From Actinomycetota bacterium (lineage in GTDB: Bacteria > Actinomycetota > Coriobacteriia > Anaerosomatales > JAUXNU01), in the NCBI GenBank assembly GCA_030682655.1, contig JAUXNU010000205.1, forward strand, positions 62,001 to 126,000: a DNA stretch of 64,000 nt, read 5' to 3'. The position numbers were made by a program, and so were the translations under genes. How positions within the stretch are numbered: position 1 is the stretch's first letter; every line of letters starts with the position of its first letter. The notes under the pieces are model-generated. The model saw nothing but the letters and a program-made list of their open reading frames with translations, was not told where the DNA came from and ran no database searches. This document shows positions 1,830 through 60,955 of the stretch, piece by piece.

Positions 1830-2942
1830 CTACCCGATGTGAGCCCTAAGGTCCTCGCTATGCGACGCGCCAAACTCCTCGAGCAACTCCTTGCCTTGCG
1901 CCGTGAGCTTGGTCGGGATAACGATGTGGGACTTGACCTTCAAGTCCCCCCAACCTTTGCCCTTGAGCTTCGGGGCTCCCTTTCCGGCGAGCCGGAAGAC
2001 CTTGCCCTCCTGCGTGCCGGGAGCGATCTTGAGCTTGACCCTCTGGCCGGAAGGCGTCGGTATCGTGACCTCCGTGCCAAGAGCAGCCTCTGTGACCGAC
2101 AGCGGCAGCTCCATGTGCACGTTCGCACCGTCACGCGTGTAGTAGGGATGCGGGCGCATCCGCGTCACAACGTACAGGTCGCCGGCCGGACCGCCCGACT
2201 CACCGGGCTCGCCCTTGCCCTTGAACCTGAGCTTGCCTCCGTCCGTCACACCCGGAGGTACGTTCACCGTGACCGGCTTGACCTTGACCACACGCCCCTT
2301 CCCCCGGCAGGTCGTGCACGGCGTCTCCACTATCGTCCCGGTGCCATTGCAGCGCGGACATGTGCGCGAGATAGCGAACATTCCTTGCCCCTCGCTCGTG
2401 TGCCCGGTCCCGCCGCACGTCGAGCATTTCGTGCGCGAAGTCCCGGGCTTGGCGCCGGTGCCTTTGCAGACAGAACAGGCCTCCGCCCGCTGGATATCCA
2501 CCCGCGAAGAGACCCCTTCCAGGGCCTCTTCGAAAGAGAGGTCCAGGTCATATGTGAGATCGCGTCCTCGGCGTGCCGAGGAGCGTGAGCGTGAACCAGC
2601 CCCGCCTCCGAACATGCTTCCGAACAGGTCTCCCATGTCTCCAAGGTCGACGTTCTGGTAGGAGAACCCACCTCCACCCGCACCGGGCCATCCTGGGCCG
2701 GGACCGCCGGCGCCGGGCGGGGCATTACCGCCGAAGTACTGCCCGTATTGGTCGTACTGGGAGCGCTTGTCGTCGTCGGACAGGACTTCGTACGCCTCGT
2801 TGATCTCCTTGAATCTCTCCTCGGATCCACCGGCGTCAGGATGATGCTTGCGCGCCAGCTTGCGGAAGGCCTTCTTGACCTCCTCGGTCGAGGCGTCCTT
2901 CTTGACGCCGAGTATGTCGTAGTAGTCCTTCCTGCCGGCCAT
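1830..2942 (-). CDS. dnaJ: DnaJ co-chaperone
   Basis: 370-residue type I J-protein that stimulates DnaK ATPase and delivers substrates. Visible order: J domain with the HPD tripeptide (KHHPDAG, about residue 34), Gly/Phe-rich linker (about 72-125), zinc-binding domain with four CxxCxGxG repeats ([32 protein letters not shown]), and the C-terminal substrate-binding domains. Full family length. It starts 3 bases after grpE stops, so the two are translationally coupled. Confidence 0.97.
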
Positions 2943-2945
2943 GGC

Positions 2946-3548
2946 CTACTCCTCAGGTGCGGACGGCCCCCCGGTGGCGACGACGACCATCGCCGACCGG
3001 ATCACCCGGCCGTGCATCTCGTAGCCCTTCTGGTAGACCTCGATGACGGTGCCCTCCGCGACATCGGCGTCTTCCTTGCTGCCGACCGCATGGTGCCTGA
3101 GCGCATCGAACTGTATGCCAAGGGGGTCGACCGGAGTCGCGCCTTCCTTGGCCAGGACATCTAGCAACTGACCGAGTACCATCTCGACACCCGTTAGCAG
3201 GTCGCTGTCTCCTCCGGCCGTCGCGTGATCGATGGCTCGCTCTAGATTGTCGATTGCAGGCAACAGGTTCTCAACGAGGCGCTGCCCCGCACGCAGGGTC
3301 GCGTCGTGCTGCTCGCGCACCATGCGTTTGCGGAAGTTCTCGAATTCGGCCTGGACGCGCTGGGCCACCTCAAGGTTCTTCGTCGCCTCTTCGCGAGCGG
3401 CTTCGAGATCCTCGGCGAGGCGGTCCCCGCGAAGCTCGAACTCGGCACCAAGGTCTTCTTCCAGCTCGGGGTCGAACTCAGGTTCGGGGACCCGCTCGGG
3501 GCCCCGAACCTCGCGTGCGTCCTCGTCGTGCCGGCCCATGCTACTCAT
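2946..3548 (-). CDS. grpE: GrpE nucleotide exchange factor
   Basis: 200-residue GrpE. An acidic N-terminal tail is followed by a long coiled coil (about 60-110, with [15 protein letters not shown]) and the C-terminal beta domain ending in the family signature around [17 protein letters not shown]. It exchanges ADP for ATP on DnaK. The first ATG overlaps the dnaK stop by 8 bases; a second ATG three codons later (3539) is equally possible because neither has a strong ribosome-binding site. Lies between dnaK and dnaJ. Confidence 0.95.
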
Positions 3549-5430
3549 CTTCGTCGACTACCTCATAGTCGGCCTCGACGACCTCTTCCTCATCGCCGGC
3601 CGGCGCATCGCCGTCACCTTCGTCCGCCGGGGTGTCCTGATAGACGATCTCGGCAAGCTTGTACGAGACCTCCTGCAGCTTCTCGGTGAGGGACTTGAGC
3701 TCGTCGGCGTCATCGCCCTCGAGGGCCTTCTTGACATCCTCGGCAGCAGACTCGCACGCGGTACGCGTTTCCTCGGGCACCTTGTCGCCCAGGTCCTTCA
3801 GCGTCTTCTCCGTGGAGTACACGAGCGTGTCAGCCATGTTGCGGATCTCGGCATCATCCCTCTTCTTGCGATCTTCCTCTGCGTGGGCCTCGGCATCCGT
3901 GACCATACGGTCGACCTCTTCATCGGACAGCGCCGTGGAGCCGGAGATTGTGATCTTCTGCTCCTGACCGGTCCCCCTGTCCTTGGCCGACACATTCACG
4001 ATTCCGTTGGCGTCGATGTCGAATGTGACTTCAACCTGCGGAATACCGCGTGGTGCCGACGGGATGTTCATCAGGTGGAACTTGCCGAGGGTCTTGTTGT
4101 CGGAAGCCATGTTGCGCTCACCCTGGAGCACGTGGATCTCCACGCTTGTCTGGCCGTCTGCGGCGGTCGTGTAGATCTCGGACTTGCGCGTCGGGATCGT
4201 GGTGTTGCGATCGATCATCTTGGTCATGACTCCGCCAAGCGTCTCGACGCCCAGAGAAAGCGGGGTCACGTCGAGTAGCAGGATGTCCTTGACGTCGCCT
4301 GCAAGTACTCCGGCCTGAATGGCGGCACCTACGGCTACCACTTCGTCGGGGTTGACGCCCTTGTGCGGGTCCTTGCCCGTGATCCCCTTGACCATCTCGA
4401 CGACGGCAGGCATGCGAGTTGAACCGCCCACGAGAATGACGTGGTCAATATCCGAGGACTTCACGCCCGAGTCCTTGATCGCGGTCTCGACGGGCTTCTT
4501 GCAGCGTTCGAGCAAGTCGCTTGTCACCTTCTGGAATTCGGCGCGCGACAGGCTGTAGTCGAGGTGCTTCGGTCCCGCAGCGTCCGCCGTCACAAACGGT
4601 AGGTTGATCTGCGTGGTCTGCGTCGTGGAAAGCTCCATCTTCGCCTTCTCCGCGGCCTCCTTGAGGCGCTGCAGGGCCATCTTGTCCGCACGCAGGTCGA
4701 TACCCTGGTCGGCCTTGAACTTCTCCGCCAGCCAGTCGATGACGCGCTGGTCCCAGTCGTCGCCGCCGAGGTGATTGTCCCCGCTCGTCGACTTGACCTC
4801 GAACACGCCCTCGCCGATCTCCATGACCGACACGTCGAAGGTGCCGCCGCCGAGGTCGAACACAAGGATCGTGTGGTCCTCGTGCCCCTTGTCGAGTCCG
4901 TACGCCAGAGCTGCGGCCGTCGGCTCGTTGATGATGCGCTTGACCTCCAGGCCGGCGATCTTGCCCGCGTCCTTCGTGGCCTGGCGCTGCATGTCGTTGA
5001 AGTACGCCGGCACGGTGATGACCGCTTCGGTCACCGACTCGCCGAGATACGCCTCCGCGTCTGCCTTCAGCTTCTGCAGAACCATCGCCGAGATCTCCTC
5101 GGGCGTGTAGTTCTTTCCGTCGATGTCGACGTTGCAGCGTCCATCCTTGCCCTTGAGCACGTTGTACGCGATCGTTCCGCGTTCGGACTTCGTCTCTTCG
5201 TACTTGCGGCCGATGAAGCGCTTGATTGAGCTGATCGTGTTCTCAGGGTTGGTGATGGCCTGGTTCTTGGCCGCCTTGCCCACGACGCGCTCGCCGTCCT
5301 TGCGGAACGCGACGACCGACGGTGTCGTGCGGTCGCCTTCCGAGTTGATGATGATCGTCGGCTCGCCGCCCTCAAGAACCGCCACAGCCGAGTTCGTCGT
5401 GCCAAGGTCGATCCCCAGTACCTTGCCCAT
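3541..5430 (-). CDS. dnaK: DnaK (Hsp70) chaperone
   Basis: 629-residue Hsp70. The ATPase domain starts [18 protein letters not shown] and contains the phosphate-2 loop [10 protein letters not shown] and the adenosine motif [13 protein letters not shown]. The linker is followed by the peptide-binding beta sandwich ([13 protein letters not shown]) and helical lid, ending in the acidic tail EVVDEDE typical of bacterial DnaK. First gene of the chaperone operon. Start ATG follows GGAAGGAGAGA. Regulation is probably by HspR, which is encoded in the same operon. Confidence 0.98.
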
Positions 5431-7468: not shown

Positions 7469-8203
7469 CTACTCCTGCTTCGCAGGGATATCGGTCTCGA
7501 TCTTCCGCACCTCAACTAGTTCGGACTGGACGATCAGACGGTACCTGGCGCTATACGGTGGATGACATGCGGTGAGTGTGAGCGTAGGCACGTCTGTAGT
7601 GTCCAAGACCTCCACTCTGTTCGGCGTGACCTGAAACGTCTTGAACACAACGTACCGATAGCGCCGATACGGCGAGTACAGGTAGATGGTATCACCGGTG
7701 GCGAGCGCGTCGAGCTTGCGGAACGGAGCGCCGTAGGTCGTGCGATGCCCCGACACGCCGCTGTTTCCCGTGGGTCCGGGCAGGTCGGTGTAGTCGACCC
7801 ATGCCGGCCCCCGCTTCAGGTTCTCGCGGGAGTGACCTTTCACGACAAGCGCATCGAGGCCCATGTCGGCGCTCACGAGGCGTCCGAACACGCCGCCGTC
7901 CTTGAGCGACTCCCAATACGCGACATCCTCGGCCTCGTATCCGTTCCAGTCGAACTGCACGGTTCCATCGTCAAGCAGCCTGTCTGGCGCTGGGGACGTG
8001 AGGACCGCCAAGGAAGAGACCTCCGACTCGAGGTCGGCCTGGCGCCACCCTGCGGCAAGGTCCGTGAGGCCGTAATAGGACAGGAGACCGACCGCTATTC
8101 CAAGGAAAACGTTCCCCATGCCGTGCGCGATGAGGCGAAGCGGGCGACCGCTCCCGCCTGAGGATGCGGGCATGAGGCGAGCTGCTGCTCTTGTCGACTC
8201 CAT
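7469..8203 (-). CDS. Class E sortase
   Basis: 244-residue membrane transpeptidase. Layout: short cytoplasmic N terminus, one membrane segment (about 25-50), then the sortase barrel. Catalytic residues are visible: His153 in SGHRTTYGAPF, Cys213 in LTLTACHPPYS, and Arg in SARYR (220/222). SGHRTTYGAPF and TLTxC are hallmarks of actinobacterial class E sortases, which often recognise LAxTG or related signals. The obvious local substrate is the LPFTGG protein at 9361-14838. Start ATG is preceded by GAGGCGG. A pentanucleotide repeat lies 38 bases upstream. Confidence 0.9.
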   Translation of the reverse strand: MESTRAAARLMPASSGGSGRPLRLIAHGMGNVFLGIAVGLLSYYGLTDLAAGWRQADLESEVSSLAVLTSPAPDRLLDDGTVQFDWNGYEAEDVAYWESLKDGGVFGRLVSADMGLDALVVKGHSRENLKRGPAWVDYTDLPGPTGNSGVSGHRTTYGAPFRKLDALATGDTIYLYSPYRRYRYVVFKTFQVTPNRVEVLDTTDVPTLTLTACHPPYSARYRLIVQSELVEVRKIETDIPAKQE

Positions 8204-8241
8204 GAACCGCCTCGATCCGGTGGTCAGAACACCCGCAGGCT

Positions 8242-8263
8242 ACTGCACTGCACTGCACTGCAC
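8242..8263. repeat. Pentanucleotide tandem repeat (ACTGC)4.4
   Basis: Four exact tandem copies of ACTGC plus two more bases, 38 bases upstream of the sortase start codon (minus strand: GCAGT repeats). It is the clearest microsatellite I noticed in the window. Its place in the sortase promoter/leader makes copy-number-dependent expression conceivable; that is inference. Confidence 0.85.
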
Positions 8264-8390
8264 GCACAAAGTGTGACCTGCGCCTCACGAACTCTGTGAC
8301 GGAAACCACAACTTCCCTCTAAGGACTGTGTCCTCGCGTGCCGATATCACGAGTGTAAGACATTGAAAGCCGCATATCGCCAGTGCTCCC

Positions 8391-8482
8391 CGATAAAGGC
8401 ACGGCTCGCCGAAAGACGAGCTTCGCAAAGTCACGGGTCTAACGGAAGGTTCGCCTTCCCACGACAGCCGGACCGCCGGGTA
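8391..8482 (+). promoter_or_regulatory. c-di-GMP-I (GEMM-I) riboswitch aptamer
   Basis: The RNA shows the whole GEMM-I architecture in order: GGCACGG closing strand (8398), P2 hairpin GCTCG..CGAGC capped by GAAA (8404-8421), the invariant CGCAAAG (8424-8430), CACGGGTCTAA (8432-8442), a perfect 6-bp hairpin GGAAGG-TTCG-CCTTCC (8444-8459), then ACGACAGCCGG and the closing CCGCC (8461-8477). The base equivalent to Vc2 G20 appears to be G, which favours c-di-GMP over cGAMP; that alignment is by eye. Downstream, GGTACG (8479-8484) can pair with CGTACC (8556-8561), directly before the ribosome-binding site AAGGGG (8563-8568). This suggests control of translation. No terminator U-run is visible. It serves the secreted protein at 8578. 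Confidence 0.87.
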
Positions 8483-8577
8483 CGACACCGAAGCCATTCA
8501 GGCCCGGTTCCGCCCAGCGCCATAGGGAGGAGTCGGGTCGATGTGCATCAGGGGCCGTACCGAAGGGGTGCACCACA

Positions 8578-9153
8578 ATGAAGACCGCAATTCGAACGAA
8601 TGCGACTCGCATCGGCGTCACGATGCTTGTCGCCCTTCTGATTGCCACTGCGGCGCCCGCCGTGGCCACCGCCATCAGCCCTACTCCTGCTGCAGGCGGA
8701 CTTCGTGTGACCCAGCTTGCCCCTGACGCCCCGCTTGCACCCAAGGTCCAGGTCGCGCAGTCCGGCATCTCAGCTCTGTCCAAGGTGATGTACCTCAAGG
8801 AAGCCCCCCTGCCCGTGATTGTCAAGACCACCTCACGGGGCAGTACGACCATCCAGAGCGTGGCCACGAAGTCCTTGGCGAGGAACACAAAGAGCTCCGG
8901 CGGCGATCTCGCACAGGCACAGTCGATCCTCTCGGGGCTGATCGCGAAGTACCCGATACTCGCCGGCGCCACCGTGACCATCGGCGACGCTCGCGGATAC
9001 CAGGCGATCGCGTACTACCAGTCAGGAAGAATCGTCATCAGCAAGAGCCGCAGCGCAAGCCTGTCCACCATCCTGAACCACGAGGTCTGGCACATCATCG
9101 ACTGGAGAGACAACGGCAAGATCGACTGGGGCGAGAACGTGCCTCCCAAGTAG
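8578..9153 (+). CDS. Secreted HExxH metalloprotease-like protein under riboswitch control
   Basis: 191 residues. A Sec signal peptide (hydrophobic 13-31, likely cleavage after AVATA near 32) gives an exported protein of about 160 residues. Near the C terminus lies HEVWH (168-172), a zinc-protease HExxH motif, followed by DWRDN (175-179), which could give a third ligand, and IDWGE (182-186). The protein ends NVPPK. The small size and terminal HExxH recall secreted single-domain metalloproteases; I cannot assign a named family. Start ATG follows AAGGGG with 9-base spacing. The c-di-GMP riboswitch in its leader and the giant surface protein convergent to it suggest it processes the surface layer. 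Protease activity is inferred from the motif alone. Confidence 0.8.
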   Translation: MKTAIRTNATRIGVTMLVALLIATAAPAVATAISPTPAAGGLRVTQLAPDAPLAPKVQVAQSGISALSKVMYLKEAPLPVIVKTTSRGSTTIQSVATKSLARNTKSSGGDLAQAQSILSGLIAKYPILAGATVTIGDARGYQAIAYYQSGRIVISKSRSASLSTILNHEVWHIIDWRDNGKIDWGENVPPK

Positions 9154-9223
9154 CAGACCCGCGCCACGATCGTTCAGCCACTCATGGCAATCGCCCGGCA
9201 GCCCGTCTCTCCCACGTACCGGC

Positions 9224-9257
9224 GCAAGGCCCCGACTCACCTGAGCCGGGGCCTTGC
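9224..9257 (+). terminator. Hairpin terminator after the HExxH gene
   Basis: GCAAGGCCCCG and CGGGGCCTTGC form a perfect 11-bp stem with a 12-base loop, about 70 bases past the stop codon. The bases after it (GTCACC) are not T-rich, so it may be a Rho-assisted or mRNA 3'-end structure. Confidence 0.55.
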
Positions 9258-9279
9258 GTCACCAATGCCTGTGCCAAGA

Positions 9280-9308
9280 GGAATGGGCCGCGCTCGGCGG
9301 CCCATTCC
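9280..9308. terminator. Bidirectional hairpin between convergent genes
   Basis: GGAATGGGCCGC and GCGGCCCATTCC form a perfect 12-bp stem with a 5-base loop, about 50 bases past the 3' end of the giant surface-protein gene on the minus strand and downstream of the HExxH gene on the plus strand. No long T-run on either side. Confidence 0.55.
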
Positions 9309-9360
9309 GTTGTCATCGCCAGACCCTCAGCACTCGAGCGGCCCATGTGCGTTCATTGCA

Positions 9361-12300
9361 TCATGCACCAATGCGACCGGCGCGCCGTAGCACGAAGCCG
9401 GTCACTATCGCGGCCATTGCGAACATGAGAAGCATGAGAACGCTACCACCGGTGAACGGCAGGAACGGCTCGCCGACCACTACTCGCCACGTGTCGCGAT
9501 CGTTGTCCGGGTTCCGATCGTTCGGGTCCTTGATCACAACAACGTTGTCGACGTTCGTCTTGCCATCGGGCATTGTCTCGTCGATCTTCACGACGTACGT
9601 GACCTTGCCGGACTCGCCGGCGGCGAGATAGCTCTTGTTCCACGTGATCTTCCCGCCTGCGACGGTTCCCCCGCCTGCGTCAACGACCGTTGCGTAACGT
9701 TCGTCGTAGTCATCGACGATCTTGAATCCCTGCGACGGGCCGTCGCCCACGTTCTTGAACGTGAGGGTGTATGTGACCTTGTCGCCCGGCTTCGCCTTCG
9801 TCTTGTCGGCGGACTTCTCGATCGTAAGATCGGGAGGCGTGAACGGTGTCGTCGGATTACTCAGCAGAACGGTTGCCTCGGCGGTGTTGTTGTTCTCGTC
9901 CCAATCGTCCGGGTGCGAGATCACCACATCATTGTCGAGAGGCGTGATCACGTCGGCCGGAATCAACTCGGGGTCCTTGACCTGGGCCACATACGTGATC
10001 GAACCGGTGGCTCCAGCCGCCAGTTCGGTACCGACGGTCCAAACAAGCGTGTCGCCGTTGTCGACCGCACCAGCAGCGTCCACGACATCCACGAGCGTCT
10101 CATCGTAGTCGTCCGTGACGGTGAAGTCCTTGGCCGGGACCGAGCTTTCGTTCTTGTAGGTGACGGTATAGGTGATGAAGCCCAAAGCAGTCGCTGTTGG
10201 CACATCCGAGGCCTTGGCGATGGAGAGGTCCATCTCCGGGACGTCGACGTTCCAGTCGTGCGTGTCCACGAGCTCCTTCTCGAACTCGGGAACCAGGTCA
10301 TCAACCAGGTCTAGCTCCAGATACGGGAAGTCTTCGTAGAAGTAGGCGATGTTGTAGATGTCGTTCTCAAGTGACGGCATGGGCTTGGTGGTCTGAATCG
10401 TGACGTGCAGTTCGTGGGTAACTCCGTCAGGCGCCACGTCGCCGACGTCCCAGGTGATCTCGTCACCCGAAACCAGGCCGCCTCCATCCACGTCAAGAAT
10501 CGAGTAGAGAGCGGCATCCGCATCGGCGAAGTCGTCGACGATGAGCACGCCGAGAGCCGGGCCCTGGCCGTCGTTGCGATAGCTGATGGTGTATTCCACC
10601 TCGTCGCCCGAAGCCGCAACTGTCTTGTCGCCGGTCTTCATGTAGGTCATCTCGGCGTAGGCCGCGACATAGACATCCCAGTAGTCCTGGATGCTTTCCT
10701 GCATGTGGTGGAGAGTCGCCACGTTGTGAACGACGTTGAAGTTGTCGGGCATCGTATCGCGGAGCTTCACCGTGTAGGTCACGGAGTCACCGCTCTGAGC
10801 TGCAACGGTGCCGATATCCCATGTGATCGTGCCCGGAACGCTCGTGTCGCCGCCGCCGGCGTCCACAACGGACTGGACGTAGGTGGTGTCGTAGACATCG
10901 TCGAGCGTCACGTTCTCTGCGGCAGTGTTGCCGTCGTTGAACCAGCTGACTGTGTAGGTGACTTGATCACCGGGGTCGGCGTTCGACTTGTCTGCTTCCT
11001 TCAGGATCGACAGAATCGGCGCCGCATCGACGTCAACATCCCAGTCATCGGGATACTCGTCGCCGTCGTGGAGCAGTGTCGCGTCGTTGTGGACTACGTT
11101 GTACGTCGAAGGAACGATGCTGTGAACTCGAGCCGTGTAGGTAACGCTACCCGAACCTCCTGCGGGCAACGTGCCCATATCCCAGGTGATCGTGTCGCCG
11201 TCGTCCGTTCCGCCACCGGTGGACTCGATATCGACGAGAGCCTCGTCATAGTTGTCGACGATCTCCACGTCCTTCGCTGCGGTGTCACCGGCATTGGCCC
11301 ACGACAGCGTGTAGGTCACGAGTTCGCCTGGCTGTGCGGCGGTCTTGTCCGCCGTCTTCTCGAAGCTCAGGTCCGACGAAGCGTCGACGTCTACCGTCCA
11401 GTCATCGGACTCGACGAAGTTCTCGTAGAACTCGTAGATGCTCGCCTCGTTGAAGATGTCATTGATGACGTCAGGCATGACGTCGGCTACCCGAATCGTG
11501 ACAACCAGCGTGCCGCTGGCACCGGCCGCAAGATCGCCGAGGAGCCACTCGATGCTGTCGTCGCCGTCTTGCGTACCACCGTCGGCGTCAGTGATGGCGA
11601 AGAGACCCGCGTCGGCGTTTGAGAAGTCATCGACTATGCGCACGTTCTTCGCCTCGGTAGTCCCTGTGTTCCTGTAGTCGATCGAGTAGGTAACCGTGCC
11701 GCCTGTGACAGACTCAATGGCGTCAGCGCTCTTGCTGATATGCAGCTCCGCCGCCGCATCTACTGAGACGTCCCACACGGCCTGGTCGGCCAGTGCGTCG
11801 CCCTGATAGAGCGATACGGTGTTGTGGACGGTGTTTGTCACCTCAGGCATGACGTCCTTGACCTTCACCTGATAGGTGAAGCTACCGGTCGCGTCAGGAG
11901 CCACGTCGCCGAGATACCAGTAGATCGTGTCGCCATCGTCGGCCCCGCCGTCGGTCGAGACGACCTCGGCCAGGCTCTGGTCGTAGTCGTCGGAGATCCA
12001 CACGCCGTGTGCCGACGTCGAGCCACCGGTGTTGGACCAATTCACCGTGTAGGTGACGGTCTCGCCCGGTGAGGCGATGATCTTGTCCGCGGTCTTGTCG
12101 ACGTCGAGCGCGGTCTCGGCCGGCACGCGAACGAGGGCCTCGGCTTCGGCCACAATCTGACGATTCACAAGCAGGTCAGCGTAGTTGATTACGTAGTTGG
12201 AGATCTCCGGCATGTAGTCGAAGGCGGTCACGGTGTAGCTCACCGAGCGGGTGACCCCGTCGGCGGGCACGGTGCCGAGAGCGAAGAGGATCGTGTCGCC

Positions 12301-14838
12301 GTTGTCGATGCCGCCATTGGCGTCGAAGACGCTCACGAGCATCTGGTCATAGTCGTCTTCTATCGAGACGTTCTCTGCATCGAGCGAGCCGGAGTTCGTG
12401 TAGTAGAGCGTGTAGGTGATCGCTCCGCCCGGAACCGTCTCGGACGGCACTGCGACCTTGTCGAAGGACCAGTCGGGAGCCGCGTCGACCGAAACCATCT
12501 CGGTGTCTTCGTCGACCCATTCACCGTCTTCGAAGATCGCGGCCGTGTTGAAGATCTCGTTGTAGGCAGCCGGCATGACGTCCTTGAGCTTCACCGTGTA
12601 GGTCACAGATCCGCCGGACTTCGCTGCAACAGTGCCCACGTCCCACGTGATCGTGCCGGGAACGCTGTCGTCGCCTCCGTCGGCGTCGACCACGGAGTCC
12701 ACGTAGTCGGTGTCGTACGTGTCCTCGACCGTCACATCGGTGGCTGCGGTCGTCCCGTTGTTGTACCACTCCACCAGGTAGGTGACTTCGTCACCAGGCT
12801 CATCGGGTGATACCAGCACGCTCTTCTCGATGGAGAGTTCGCTCGAAGCATAGATGTCGACATGCTCCGAAGCCTGGTCGACAACCTGCTGGTTCATGGA
12901 GATGCTGGCTGTGTTGTCGATGTCGTTCGAGAACCCGGGAAGGATGTCGGCAACCCGTATGACGACCTCGAGCGAGTGATGCACGCCATCTGCCGCGACA
13001 GGGCCGATCGGCCAAAGCAGTACGCCTCCCGGTCCCGGAATGCCGCCTCCACCGTTCAGCACGGAGTAGAGCAGCGCGTCGTCAGGGGCGAAGACGTCCA
13101 TGACCGCGACGTCCAGCGCTGCCGTGCTCCCATCGTTCCAGTACTCGATCATGTAGGAGACGGCCTGACCCGGGACGGCGACGTCGACTGACGCGACCTT
13201 GGTGATGTGCAGTCTGGGCGCCGCAATGACGCGAACGTCTTCCACGGCGAAGTCCTTCGACACGCCGTCCAGGCGGATGTCCGCCCGGTTGTGGACGGTC
13301 TCGTTTGCTGTCGGCAGAACCCCGATCACAGTCGCCGAGTAGGTGATCACATGCCACGATGTGCCCGCAGGGAGGTCCCCAATGTCCCACGTCAGCTCGT
13401 CGCCGTCATCCGTTGCGGGCGCATAGCCTGTGGGCGTGACAAGCGTCTCGTCGTAGTCGTCGACGATCGACACGTCTCGAGCGGTCGTATTCCCGGTGTT
13501 GCGATACCGGAGGGTGTAGTTGATCACTTCACCTGGAGCCACCTCATCGCGGTCGGCCGTCTTCTCGATCTCGAGCTCGACACGCGGGATGAAGTTCAGT
13601 GCCGAGAACTGCACGGTCGTCGTGCGCGGTATCGTGATCGTCTTGGGCGTGACCAGGTTGGTCGAAACCCAGTCCCCGTTGACTACCTCGGAGAGCTCGT
13701 AGTCTCCGGGAGGGAGCTTCGAGAACGTCGCCACCCCGTCGGCGGTGGTTGCAGTCAGCGTGAACGGGTACGCCGGATCGAGGTACTTCAACTTGAAGGT
13801 GAAGGCGGGAGAGGTCAGCTTGGGATCCGGATCGCTCGTGTCCCCGTCGCCATCGAGGTCGTTGTACTTCGTGACCTCAAGATAGCTGTCGGGAATCGCC
13901 GCAGCGCCGACCGGGAACGGAACGGCCTTCTGGCCGATATTGTCGCCAGAGTGCCAAGCCCACAGGCGCGCCTGCGCGCTCGCACCATTGAAGAAGCTCG
14001 CCCCCTTGTAGGGAGTGGCCTTGGTCTGCCAGTACTCGGTTATGGCGAGATGCGCTTCGAAATAGACCGCTCCCACAGAGTGCGGAGGGATGAGGAACTC
14101 GGCGATCTCCGGAAGCTTGGTGACAAGACCCTTGTCGCCGTCCACTGGCACGTCCTGAAACTCCGGTGTCACCGAATGCAGCCCGGACGATGGGAATCCG
14201 TCCCCAGACGGAAGCGAAGACGCAACGTACCAGCTCCAGCCAAAGGTGTCGTCGATTGCGATGGCGCTATTGGCTGCAAGCGCCTCCTTGTAGTCCATCC
14301 AGTACTCTGCCGCCGGAACGGCCTGAGTCGTGTTTGAGGAGTTCTCTATCTTGAGCCGGAACGTTATCCACTCACCCTCGACGTAGCCCTCTTTGAGGTT
14401 CGAGTGGACCCAGGACCCGAAGTGGCGGCTGTAGCCCTCCATGGTCACGCTGCTGGGAGGGACGTAGTCCCAAGCGATCGACGAAGCAGCGAGCGGTACA
14501 CTCGGAAGGGCAGGTGGGGTCGAACGGTCCGTCACAGTGGCAACTGCCGAGGAGACTGTCGCTGCAGGCTCGCTGTCTGCGACCGGCGCGACTGGCGCCT
14601 CCTCCGACTCAGCGCCCTCGGATTCCTCCGCCTCAGGTGCCGGCGCCTCAACAACGGGATCAGCCAGCTCCTCGACAGGCGGTGGTGATGTGGTCGCCTC
14701 CTGTGAAGCTGAGGTGTTCCCATCGGCTACCGCAGGAATCGCGGAGCCGATGCCTGTGAACGATACCACCACTGCAAGCAGCAGCAGTGTCGTCAACAAG
14801 CGCGCAAACGGGCCTTTACGGCGAATGCTTCGGGCCAT
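9361..14838 (-). CDS. Giant LPFTGG-anchored DUF11-repeat surface protein
   Basis: 1825 residues. Order: signal peptide (1-38); acidic Pro/Glu/Ala-rich stretch (about 41-125) with SPPP, STPPA and YVPPSS; a unique N-terminal domain (about 125-315); one SdrD_B/prealbumin-like domain (about 318-418, with NDLDGDGDTSDPD and PPGDYELSEV); eleven DUF11 repeats of about 110-130 residues (from 421), each with a lead such as EKTADK..PGxxVTYT, then NxGxTxAxxVxIxDDYD and ITWDIGTLPAG; and a sorting signal LPFTGG (1793-1798), a membrane segment and RRAGR. DUF11 repeats form extended Ig-like stalks, so this is probably a fibrillar adhesin or S-layer-like protein linked to the wall by the sortase at 7469. A proline-rich linker TPFTPP lies before the last repeat (1664-1669). 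Start ATG follows AGGAGGGTGGGAG. Confidence 0.9.
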   Translation of the reverse strand: MARSIRRKGPFARLLTTLLLLAVVVSFTGIGSAIPAVADGNTSASQEATTSPPPVEELADPVVEAPAPEAEESEGAESEEAPVAPVADSEPAATVSSAVATVTDRSTPPALPSVPLAASSIAWDYVPPSSVTMEGYSRHFGSWVHSNLKEGYVEGEWITFRLKIENSSNTTQAVPAAEYWMDYKEALAANSAIAIDDTFGWSWYVASSLPSGDGFPSSGLHSVTPEFQDVPVDGDKGLVTKLPEIAEFLIPPHSVGAVYFEAHLAITEYWQTKATPYKGASFFNGASAQARLWAWHSGDNIGQKAVPFPVGAAAIPDSYLEVTKYNDLDGDGDTSDPDPKLTSPAFTFKLKYLDPAYPFTLTATTADGVATFSKLPPGDYELSEVVNGDWVSTNLVTPKTITIPRTTTVQFSALNFIPRVELEIEKTADRDEVAPGEVINYTLRYRNTGNTTARDVSIVDDYDETLVTPTGYAPATDDGDELTWDIGDLPAGTSWHVITYSATVIGVLPTANETVHNRADIRLDGVSKDFAVEDVRVIAAPRLHITKVASVDVAVPGQAVSYMIEYWNDGSTAALDVAVMDVFAPDDALLYSVLNGGGGIPGPGGVLLWPIGPVAADGVHHSLEVVIRVADILPGFSNDIDNTASISMNQQVVDQASEHVDIYASSELSIEKSVLVSPDEPGDEVTYLVEWYNNGTTAATDVTVEDTYDTDYVDSVVDADGGDDSVPGTITWDVGTVAAKSGGSVTYTVKLKDVMPAAYNEIFNTAAIFEDGEWVDEDTEMVSVDAAPDWSFDKVAVPSETVPGGAITYTLYYTNSGSLDAENVSIEDDYDQMLVSVFDANGGIDNGDTILFALGTVPADGVTRSVSYTVTAFDYMPEISNYVINYADLLVNRQIVAEAEALVRVPAETALDVDKTADKIIASPGETVTYTVNWSNTGGSTSAHGVWISDDYDQSLAEVVSTDGGADDGDTIYWYLGDVAPDATGSFTYQVKVKDVMPEVTNTVHNTVSLYQGDALADQAVWDVSVDAAAELHISKSADAIESVTGGTVTYSIDYRNTGTTEAKNVRIVDDFSNADAGLFAITDADGGTQDGDDSIEWLLGDLAAGASGTLVVTIRVADVMPDVINDIFNEASIYEFYENFVESDDWTVDVDASSDLSFEKTADKTAAQPGELVTYTLSWANAGDTAAKDVEIVDNYDEALVDIESTGGGTDDGDTITWDMGTLPAGGSGSVTYTARVHSIVPSTYNVVHNDATLLHDGDEYPDDWDVDVDAAPILSILKEADKSNADPGDQVTYTVSWFNDGNTAAENVTLDDVYDTTYVQSVVDAGGGDTSVPGTITWDIGTVAAQSGDSVTYTVKLRDTMPDNFNVVHNVATLHHMQESIQDYWDVYVAAYAEMTYMKTGDKTVAASGDEVEYTISYRNDGQGPALGVLIVDDFADADAALYSILDVDGGGLVSGDEITWDVGDVAPDGVTHELHVTIQTTKPMPSLENDIYNIAYFYEDFPYLELDLVDDLVPEFEKELVDTHDWNVDVPEMDLSIAKASDVPTATALGFITYTVTYKNESSVPAKDFTVTDDYDETLVDVVDAAGAVDNGDTLVWTVGTELAAGATGSITYVAQVKDPELIPADVITPLDNDVVISHPDDWDENNNTAEATVLLSNPTTPFTPPDLTIEKSADKTKAKPGDKVTYTLTFKNVGDGPSQGFKIVDDYDERYATVVDAGGGTVAGGKITWNKSYLAAGESGKVTYVVKIDETMPDGKTNVDNVVVIKDPNDRNPDNDRDTWRVVVGEPFLPFTGGSVLMLLMFAMAAIVTGFVLRRAGRIGA

Positions 14839-14888
14839 GGTACTCCCACCCTCCTGAACGTGCGTTGCTGACGAATACGGCCGTCTCG

Positions 14889-15115
14889 GAAAAGAAAAAG
14901 GGACCTGCCCATCAGCAAACGGACCGGTCTCACCATTGACTCCGCGCCGGCTCCTGTGGTGACCGTCACGCTCCGGCGCCTCGATGTCTCCCGCTGTCCC
15001 AAAGTCCGAGGACGACTATGCTGTTTGCCGACTTTCGGCCTTCTACCTCCCGCCTTTATACCCCGAGGACGGGTCAGGCAGGGGGCCGAAACCCATCCTC
15101 CAAAGGGATGAAACC
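14889..15115 (-). promoter_or_regulatory. Structured leader of the giant surface-protein gene (unassigned RNA element)
   Basis: The 510 bases between lon and the giant gene hold no convincing gene. Read as minus-strand RNA: a hairpin CAUCC..GGAUG (near 15111-15095); a large element with outer stem UUUCGGCC/GGCCGAAA (15091-15084 with 15040-15033), an inner stem CCUGCC/GGCGGG, an asymmetric UGA/UAUAAA internal loop and a CCCG-UCCU-CGGG hairpin; then a GCGCCGG/CCGGCGC domain (around 14980-14943); and finally a GGGAC/GUCCC pairing (15000-14996 with 14904-14900) running into UUUUUCUUUU about 50 bases before the start codon. Together these look like an aptamer followed by a terminator-type expression platform. 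I cannot match it to a known class. Confidence 0.5.
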
Positions 15116-15165
15116 TTGGTCTGCGATGGTATGACCTGCACCACCCCCGGTTGGCGGCAAACGAA

Positions 15166-15193
15166 GAGAGGGCCGCATTCTCGCGGCCCTCTC
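15166..15193 (-). terminator. Strong hairpin downstream of lon
   Basis: GAGAGGGCCGC and GCGGCCCTCTC form a perfect 11-bp stem with a 6-base loop. On the minus strand it is followed by TTCGTTT. It lies 156 bases past the lon stop and upstream of the structured leader of the surface-protein gene. It probably ends lon transcription, but if the surface-protein transcript begins upstream of it, it could act as an attenuator. Confidence 0.65.
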
Positions 15194-60602: not shown

Positions 60603-60683
60603 CGGAGACCTTCCGCGGGGCGAACTGCGAAGAAGTATACCGCGTCGCTATGACACGCCCGAGAACACACATCGCCCCCGAGC

Positions 60684-60769
60684 GGGTCCCGGACGCCCGG
60701 CAGAGGCCGCTTATGGCTGCTTCCTTCCGAACCTGACCAGGTTCACGACATACCGCCGTCCGAGACCCG
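60684..60769 (-). ncRNA. ffs: Signal recognition particle RNA (small, 4.5S type)
   Basis: The minus strand reads AACCTGGTCAGGTTCGGAA then GGAAGCAGCC, the universally conserved SRP domain IV with its GGUCAG and GGAAGCAGCC halves. The flanks GGGTC-TCGGACG and CGTCCG-GGACCC pair to close the long hairpin (60769-60758 with 60695-60684). Minus-strand TATACT at 60799-60794 is a likely -10, so the transcript could extend to about 60787. Location upstream of dnaX is common in Gram-positives and actinobacteria. Confidence 0.93.
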
Positions 60770-60955
60770 TTCGAAGGCGACGCGCAAGCACACAGTATAG
60801 CGCGCCCTCTGCCGGCGCGCAGGTGAACCGGGGCGGGGATTGGGCTTCGGCCCCGGGGGAACACATATGAGTACAAGAAAGGCCTCTCGTGCCACCGCGA
60901 TCCACACCCGCCAGTGCGCGAGATCGGCCTCAAGTCGCGTACGAAGGAGACCAGC

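Follow-up and report, generated by a model that had tools for sequence, protein, structure and literature searches.

Does an actinobacterial locus in which a small secreted protease faces a giant wall-anchored protein, each behind its own c-di-GMP riboswitch, attach and release the cell, and did such a device arise independently of the one in Clostridioides difficile? In C. difficile, a class I OFF switch lets PPEP-1 be produced when c-di-GMP is low; this protease releases CD2831 and CD3246, both of which are under class II ON switches (PMC6366702, PMC6447587). The original prediction, made from the DNA alone, had suggested a parallel but independently evolved attach/release device. The source genome is placed in the order Anaerosomatales, class Coriobacteriia. 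No description of the Anaerosomatales locus was found in the literature searched, and riboswitches, sortase and c-di-GMP all go unmentioned in the paper describing the Anaerosomatales.

The window, that is, the whole stretch of DNA that was analysed (64,000 nt), was scanned with cmscan and the Rfam models, which gave three matches: an SRP RNA, RF01051 and RF03169, the latter two above the gathering score and at full length. The SRP RNA is of the small bacterial type (60677-60772, minus strand, 69.4 bits). A c-di-GMP-I aptamer had been predicted before the protease gene at 8391-8482, and RF01051 indeed matched within a few nucleotides of it (gathering score 35, E 1.9e-7, model positions 1-87). 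The leader of the giant gene had merely been called structured; it proved to carry a class II c-di-GMP riboswitch of the GAG variant (15000-14913, gathering score 40, model positions 1-86), and with that the likeness to C. difficile is closer than had been claimed. The 191-aa HExxH frame and the convergent 1825-aa LPFTGG protein with DUF11 repeats were also recovered. The locus comprises the following features:

7469..8203, minus strand: sortase, class-E-like, 244 aa (PF04203, 99.6 bits)
8388..8480, plus strand: c-di-GMP-I riboswitch aptamer (RF01051; cmscan, 52.7 bits)
8578..9153, plus strand: predicted secreted mini-metalloprotease, 191 aa (ORF, alignment, AlphaFold, Foldseek)
9226..9255, no strand: GC-rich inverted repeat between the convergent genes (AAGGCCCCGACT..CCGGGGCCTT; read directly)
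9361..14838, minus strand: predicted giant wall-anchored DUF11-repeat adhesin, 1825 aa (ORF; Pfam, 11 DUF11 stretches)
14913..15000, minus strand: c-di-GMP-II-GAG riboswitch aptamer (RF03169; cmscan, 52.6 bits)

The gene order is dnaK, SDR, sortase, protease, giant and lon; the protease, led by the class I aptamer, is read to the right, and the sortase, the giant with its class II aptamer and lon are read to the left. The inverted repeat is a probable bidirectional terminator of the protease and giant genes, as judged from its letters. That a class E sortase lies close by held for the sortase itself but formally not for the class: the NCBIfam class E model scored 97.4 bits, under its cut-off of 160, although class E was still the best-scoring class. 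Position and orientation of the sortase were constant in 43 of 44 loci, and the remaining contig (G005) ends before the sortase. The source genome encodes 14 GGDEF domains and has two RF01051 and two RF03169 sites and none more; for this genome alone, the chance of one RF01051/RF03169 pair lying ≤7 kb apart is ~2%. The class I/class II pairing was seen again in >20 other genomes.

The protease consists of a signal peptide, a disordered linker of ~75 residues and a zincin domain of ~75 residues. Conservation of the HExxH residues had been named as a check, and among 43 homologues H168, E169, H172, D175, W184 and E186 were indeed invariant. Two sites are relevant to zinc binding:

9079..9093, plus strand: HEVWH zinc motif (H168, E169, H172), invariant in 43 homologues
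9133..9135, plus strand: E186, candidate third zinc ligand, invariant in 43 homologues; zinc role inferred

AlphaFold gave a confident domain at residues ~107-179 with the order helix, three strands, HExxH helix (pLDDT ~96); E186 falls where confidence in the model is low, and its placement is not reliable. Searches of Pfam, NCBIfam and PDB sequences with the protease gave nothing significant, and by sequence comparison the protein represents a new family that is restricted to the order Anaerosomatales and absent from Pfam. With Foldseek, the best solved matches of the model were the minigluzincins selecase and jannalysin (best E 0.014, probability up to 1.00, TM ~0.5 by target length). The fold is thus predicted to resemble the minigluzincins (selecase, jannalysin, abylysin), with which it shares a small zincin core of helix, strands and HExxH helix; unlike them, the protease is exported and has a long disordered linker, there is no sequence match, and only 73 columns were aligned. 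A relation to PPEP-1 was sought by protein and profile search of PDB sequences without a relevant match, and PPEP-1 was absent among the best 50 Foldseek matches listed. The protease is therefore not detectably related to the PPEPs by sequence and fold comparisons; its cleavage specificity is without assay data.

How would the class I riboswitch act on the protease? We cut 40 class I leaders into blocks and compared the native pairing energy with that of partners swapped between genomes. Block limits were chosen after reading the leaders, so that the windows are post hoc, but the swaps are not. Four helices of the expression platform were supported, each with no swap equalling the native pairing, and all four stayed supported in a set of 29 leaders with <80% identity. 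Their elements in the window are:

8372..8379, plus strand: P0-5' (GCATATCG), partner 8539-8546 (partner-swap z -6.5 to -7.6, 0 of 2000-3000)
8383..8391, plus strand: D-5', the anti-Shine-Dalgarno (anti-SD) strand (GTGCTCCCC) in the aptamer 5' flank, partner 8565-8573 (z -8, 0 of 3000)
8479..8484, plus strand: A-5' (GGTACG), partner 8556-8561 (partner-swap z -8, 0 of 2000-3000)
8501..8539, plus strand: hairpin B of the expression platform (partner-swap z -6.1, 0 of 3000)
8539..8546, plus strand: P0-3' (CGATGTGC; partner-swap test)
8556..8561, plus strand: A-3' (CGTACC; partner-swap test)
8562..8573, plus strand: Shine-Dalgarno (SD) region GAAGGGG with the D-3' strand GGGGTGCAC at 8565-8573 (sequence, partner-swap test)

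Helix P0 pairs GCACAUCG upstream of the aptamer with CGAUGUGC, helix A pairs GGUACGAG downstream of the aptamer with CUCGUACC upstream of the SD, helix B is the central hairpin, and helix D pairs GUGCUCCCC in the aptamer 5' flank with GGGGUGCAC of the SD region. Three further candidates for switch elements found no support in the swap test (z range ~ -0.8 to +1.7 over the three) and were rejected: an SD hairpin C, a true P1 formed by D5 with A5, and CUCCCC pairing with hairpin B. Helix D covers the SD completely, and its 5' strand occupies the site of aptamer helix P1. On the strength of this covariation, the platform is predicted to mask the ribosome-binding site by means of helix D. The state with A and D, in which the SD is masked, was more stable than the P0 state, by 9.3 kcal/mol on average and by 2.0 kcal/mol in the window, so the ligand is not obviously required for masking. 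P0 topologically crosses A and D; hence, the helices either alternate or form one pseudoknot.

The direction of the switch depends on which state the ligand-bound RNA adopts. If the bound form uses P0, the class I switch would be ON. c-di-GMP would then induce both genes, P0 would free the ribosome-binding site, and the protease would be an enzyme of adhesin maturation or trimming, not a releaser. P0 covaries strongly and is incompatible with the masking helices A and D, SD accessibility is 0.53 with P0 but 0.32 with A and D, and class I ON switches are known, e.g., Bc2 of Bacillus thuringiensis (PMC6366702). However, P1 in the P0 state is reduced to 2 to 3 conserved pairs that do not covary, and D takes the P1 5' strand. 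Moreover, in the leaders of four GH26 genes of the same order, a GGUGA ribosome-binding site follows directly after the aptamer and the start codon lies within ~10 nt, which fits masking by P1 and, thus, an OFF switch. Finally, nine class I targets at other loci of the order were inspected, and every one was a secreted hydrolase: GH26, GH5-like and GHL15 enzymes, a protein resembling pectate lyase and, from the source genome, a subtilase. As far as examined, the class I regulon consists wholly of such enzymes. Joint induction by c-di-GMP remains possible but is, in our judgment, unlikely. Occupation of the P1 strand by D and the position of the GH26 SDs favour the equation of ligand-bound, masked and OFF, and the riboswitch of the protease is probably an OFF switch, its direction being ambiguous and unproved. 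Vc2 is a class I translational OFF switch (PMC9262584), and like the leader studied here it has an aptamer whose closing helix is able to mask the ribosome-binding site; unlike Vc2, the Anaerosomatales leader forms three additional helices that covary (A, B and P0) between the aptamer and its SD, and this SD pairs directly with the aptamer 5' flank.

The subtilase riboswitch on contig C100 is the only other c-di-GMP-I site of the source genome (L118:4328-4402, gene at 2619-4214). The aptamers before the GH26-like enzymes (L060, L064, L069 and L070) are class I with a shortened P3.

The class II leader contains one further element:

14890..14929, minus strand: intrinsic terminator of the giant leader (GACCgGTCC..GGGCaGGTC, then CCCTTTTTCTTTT; fold, covariation), with a 5' arm that overlaps the pseudoknot strand of the aptamer

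In most class II leaders the 3' strand of the pseudoknot (GGUGAGACCGGCCC) doubles as the 5' arm of a terminator hairpin, GACCGGCCC..GGGCCGGUC, which is followed by a U-rich run, and the terminator arms covary (z -4.4, 1/3000). In the window, the terminator RNA (GACCgGUCC/GGGCaGGUC, then CCCUUUUUCUUUU) has a folding energy of -15.1 kcal/mol. Since binding needs the pseudoknot and the pseudoknot strand is the terminator 5' arm, c-di-GMP should turn the giant ON; this direction is inferred from the RNA sequence, without binding data. All four class II riboswitches of C. difficile are ON switches (PMC6366702). In two loci (L106:10977-11682 and L109:11035-11742; G018 and G027), two class II aptamers lie ~600 nt apart upstream of the giant.

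Across the order, class II targets were SdrD_B or DUF11 surface proteins, multihaem cytochromes and one glycosyltransferase, and the split between class I and class II targets fits release versus attachment. The cytochrome genes are preceded by a distinct RF03169 subtype (L117:6557-6642 on source contig C123, L033, L036, L044, L045 and L124), which reads GGGC(A/G)CCU..GCAACC, versus GGUCACC..GAGACC in the adhesin type. Among 22 sites examined the split was clean, except for L046, where a cytochrome-type site precedes an unidentified protein. The cytochrome type may be a variant that differs in its ligand or its affinity.

The giant carries an N-terminal export signal, an adhesin-like tip, an LPxTG-type motif, a hydrophobic segment and a basic tail, and its tip model (residues ~116-420) matches UafA, SdrD and Gram-positive pilins. 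By sequence and model it meets the criteria for a sortase-anchored surface adhesin. Its predicted parts are:

9445..9462, minus strand: LPFTGG sortase motif (sequence)
9463..9831, minus strand: wall-proximal DUF11 domain, within the conserved C-terminal module (alignment A3)
9832..9858, minus strand: Pro-rich linker NPTTPFTPP ahead of the last DUF11 domain (candidate cleavage site, inferred)
13849..14493, minus strand: N-terminal tip domain, pilin/MSCRAMM-like (model pLDDT 88)

From genome to genome the stalks of the giants differ in length and are of either DUF11 or SdrD_B type, but the DUF11 domain nearest the wall is conserved together with the linker that precedes it. The linker reads E-F-L-P-F-T-D/E in most giants and NPTTPFTPP in the window, and the C-terminal module aligned as A3 consists of linker, last DUF11 domain, EPFLPFTG and membrane segment. 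The linker is a natural candidate for a release cut, but both cleavage and site are inferred; no cleavage motif was proved in the giant, and an NPP motif was not found at the PP sites of the window giant. The idea is weakened by contig C18 of the source genome, which encodes a second, unlinked LPFTG protein with the same linker and wall-proximal module. The linker may thus be a general anchoring unit, or it may mark a second substrate. No c-di-GMP aptamer was found on this contig. The LPFTG DUF11 frame (L177:2-4234) continues past the anchor into another signal-peptide/DUF11 stretch.

Co-occurrence of the two surface genes elsewhere had been proposed as a further check, and they do occur together across the Anaerosomatales. 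Of 61 Anaerosomatales genomes, 44 had the protease, and in a class-wide draw of 300 genomes all 50 with a protease match belonged to this order. The layout sortase-protease-giant-lon repeats with few exceptions, and nearly all loci whose contig covers the giant start have a class II aptamer; G014 has a complete giant without one. In G004 the giant lies on another contig, and the protease keeps its class I and the giant its class II aptamer. Among the 61 genomes, 38 had both the protease and the C-terminal module of the giant, 6 only the protease, 2 (both incomplete) only the module and 15 neither (Fisher 8e-8, uncorrected for phylogeny). All 38 genomes with the giant had a class I aptamer ahead of the protease, as against one of the five giant-less genomes that could be resolved (Fisher 4e-5); the sixth giant-less genome, G005, is unresolvable because a contig end cuts the locus. 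G026 retained the aptamer; in G006, G016, G019 and G034 it is lost and protease and sortase still lie beside lon. G019 and G034 belong to the same genus, so there were fewer than four independent losses. An RF01051 match in G006 lies on an AT-rich, apparently foreign contig (C35) and was left out of the counts. In G022, aptamer and protease are duplicated in tandem, with one class I riboswitch per copy (L089:5082-6917).

These distributions also bear on whether the two genes merely share their regulation, as members of a c-di-GMP surface island in which the protease acts on some other target. Its persistence in six genomes without the giant does require other uses, and riboswitch-free paralogues exist in four genomes. 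Loss of the protease aptamer in 4 of the 5 resolvable giant-less genomes and in none of the 38 with a giant, however, suggests to us that the riboswitch is retained on account of the giant, and the presence of protease and giant is strongly correlated. Mere coregulation is, therefore, improbable as the whole explanation.

We favour, if only slightly beyond an even chance, a c-di-GMP-run attach/release device, of which three elements are inferred: the OFF direction, the cutting of the giant and the place of the cut. At high c-di-GMP, the class II riboswitch would prevent terminator formation, and the giant would be made and displayed by the sortase with its pilin-like tip, DUF11 stalk and LPFTGG anchor; the class I riboswitch would most likely hide the ribosome-binding site of the protease. 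A drop in c-di-GMP would end adhesin synthesis and allow the protease to be translated and exported. The protease would then release the cell by cutting the giant close to the anchor; the likeliest place is the Pro/aromatic linker that precedes the wall-proximal DUF11 domain. Both aptamers, both platforms, the order-wide linkage and co-occurrence, the zinc-protease signature and the anchor were computed; that c-di-GMP binds, that the two switches respond oppositely and that the protease cuts the giant at that site are inferences.

The two-riboswitch layout of adhesin and protease is otherwise known from C. difficile. In both, a small secreted HExxH protease (PPEP-1, also CD2830/ZmpI, in C. difficile) lies behind a class I riboswitch and adjoins a sortase-anchored adhesin (there CD2831) behind a class II ON switch, and both adhesins have a Pro-rich segment near the anchor. 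The class I platform, however, masks the ribosome-binding site in Anaerosomatales and is a terminator in C. difficile, the class II aptamer is a GAG variant unlike that of C. difficile, an LPFTGG motif and class-E-like sortase stand against PPKTG and SrtB, a DUF11 stalk stands against collagen-binding domains, and the Anaerosomatales device belongs to another phylum and is conserved throughout an order. Acquisition of the C. difficile device by horizontal transfer, suggested only by the identical pairing of riboswitch classes with gene roles (PMC6447587), is very hard to reconcile with these stalk, anchor and aptamer differences, with a protease family limited to one order and without a Pfam or PDB sequence match, with minigluzincins rather than PPEP-1 among the top 50 fold matches listed, and with PP sites in the window giant that include no NPP. 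The absence of a PPEP-1 sequence match and the minigluzincins as best fold matches support the independent origin that had been suggested, and the layout apparently evolved independently here. Whether an attach/release device evolved independently in Anaerosomatales in every one of its parts (class I hydrolase OFF, class II adhesin ON, a mini-protease from an unrelated family, and masking of the ribosome-binding site by a class I platform of several helices) we consider evenly balanced.

The logic of keeping or releasing an adhesin is also that of the LapA/LapG/LapD system of Pseudomonas, in which c-di-GMP sets retention versus proteolytic release of a giant adhesin. There, c-di-GMP acts via a receptor protein that restrains a cysteine protease; here, two riboswitches would take the place of the receptor.

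If the attach/release reading is true, the locus would be a second, unrelated case in which two RNA classes read one messenger at one locus to make and cut an adhesin, and evidence that the circuit design is convergent. It would also give a first function to a protease family missing from Pfam. For the Anaerosomatales, an actinobacterial order that is widespread in the subsurface and includes cultured members, it provides a testable account of surface attachment and suggests that class I and class II c-di-GMP riboswitches divide the regulon of the order into releasing enzymes and attaching structures.
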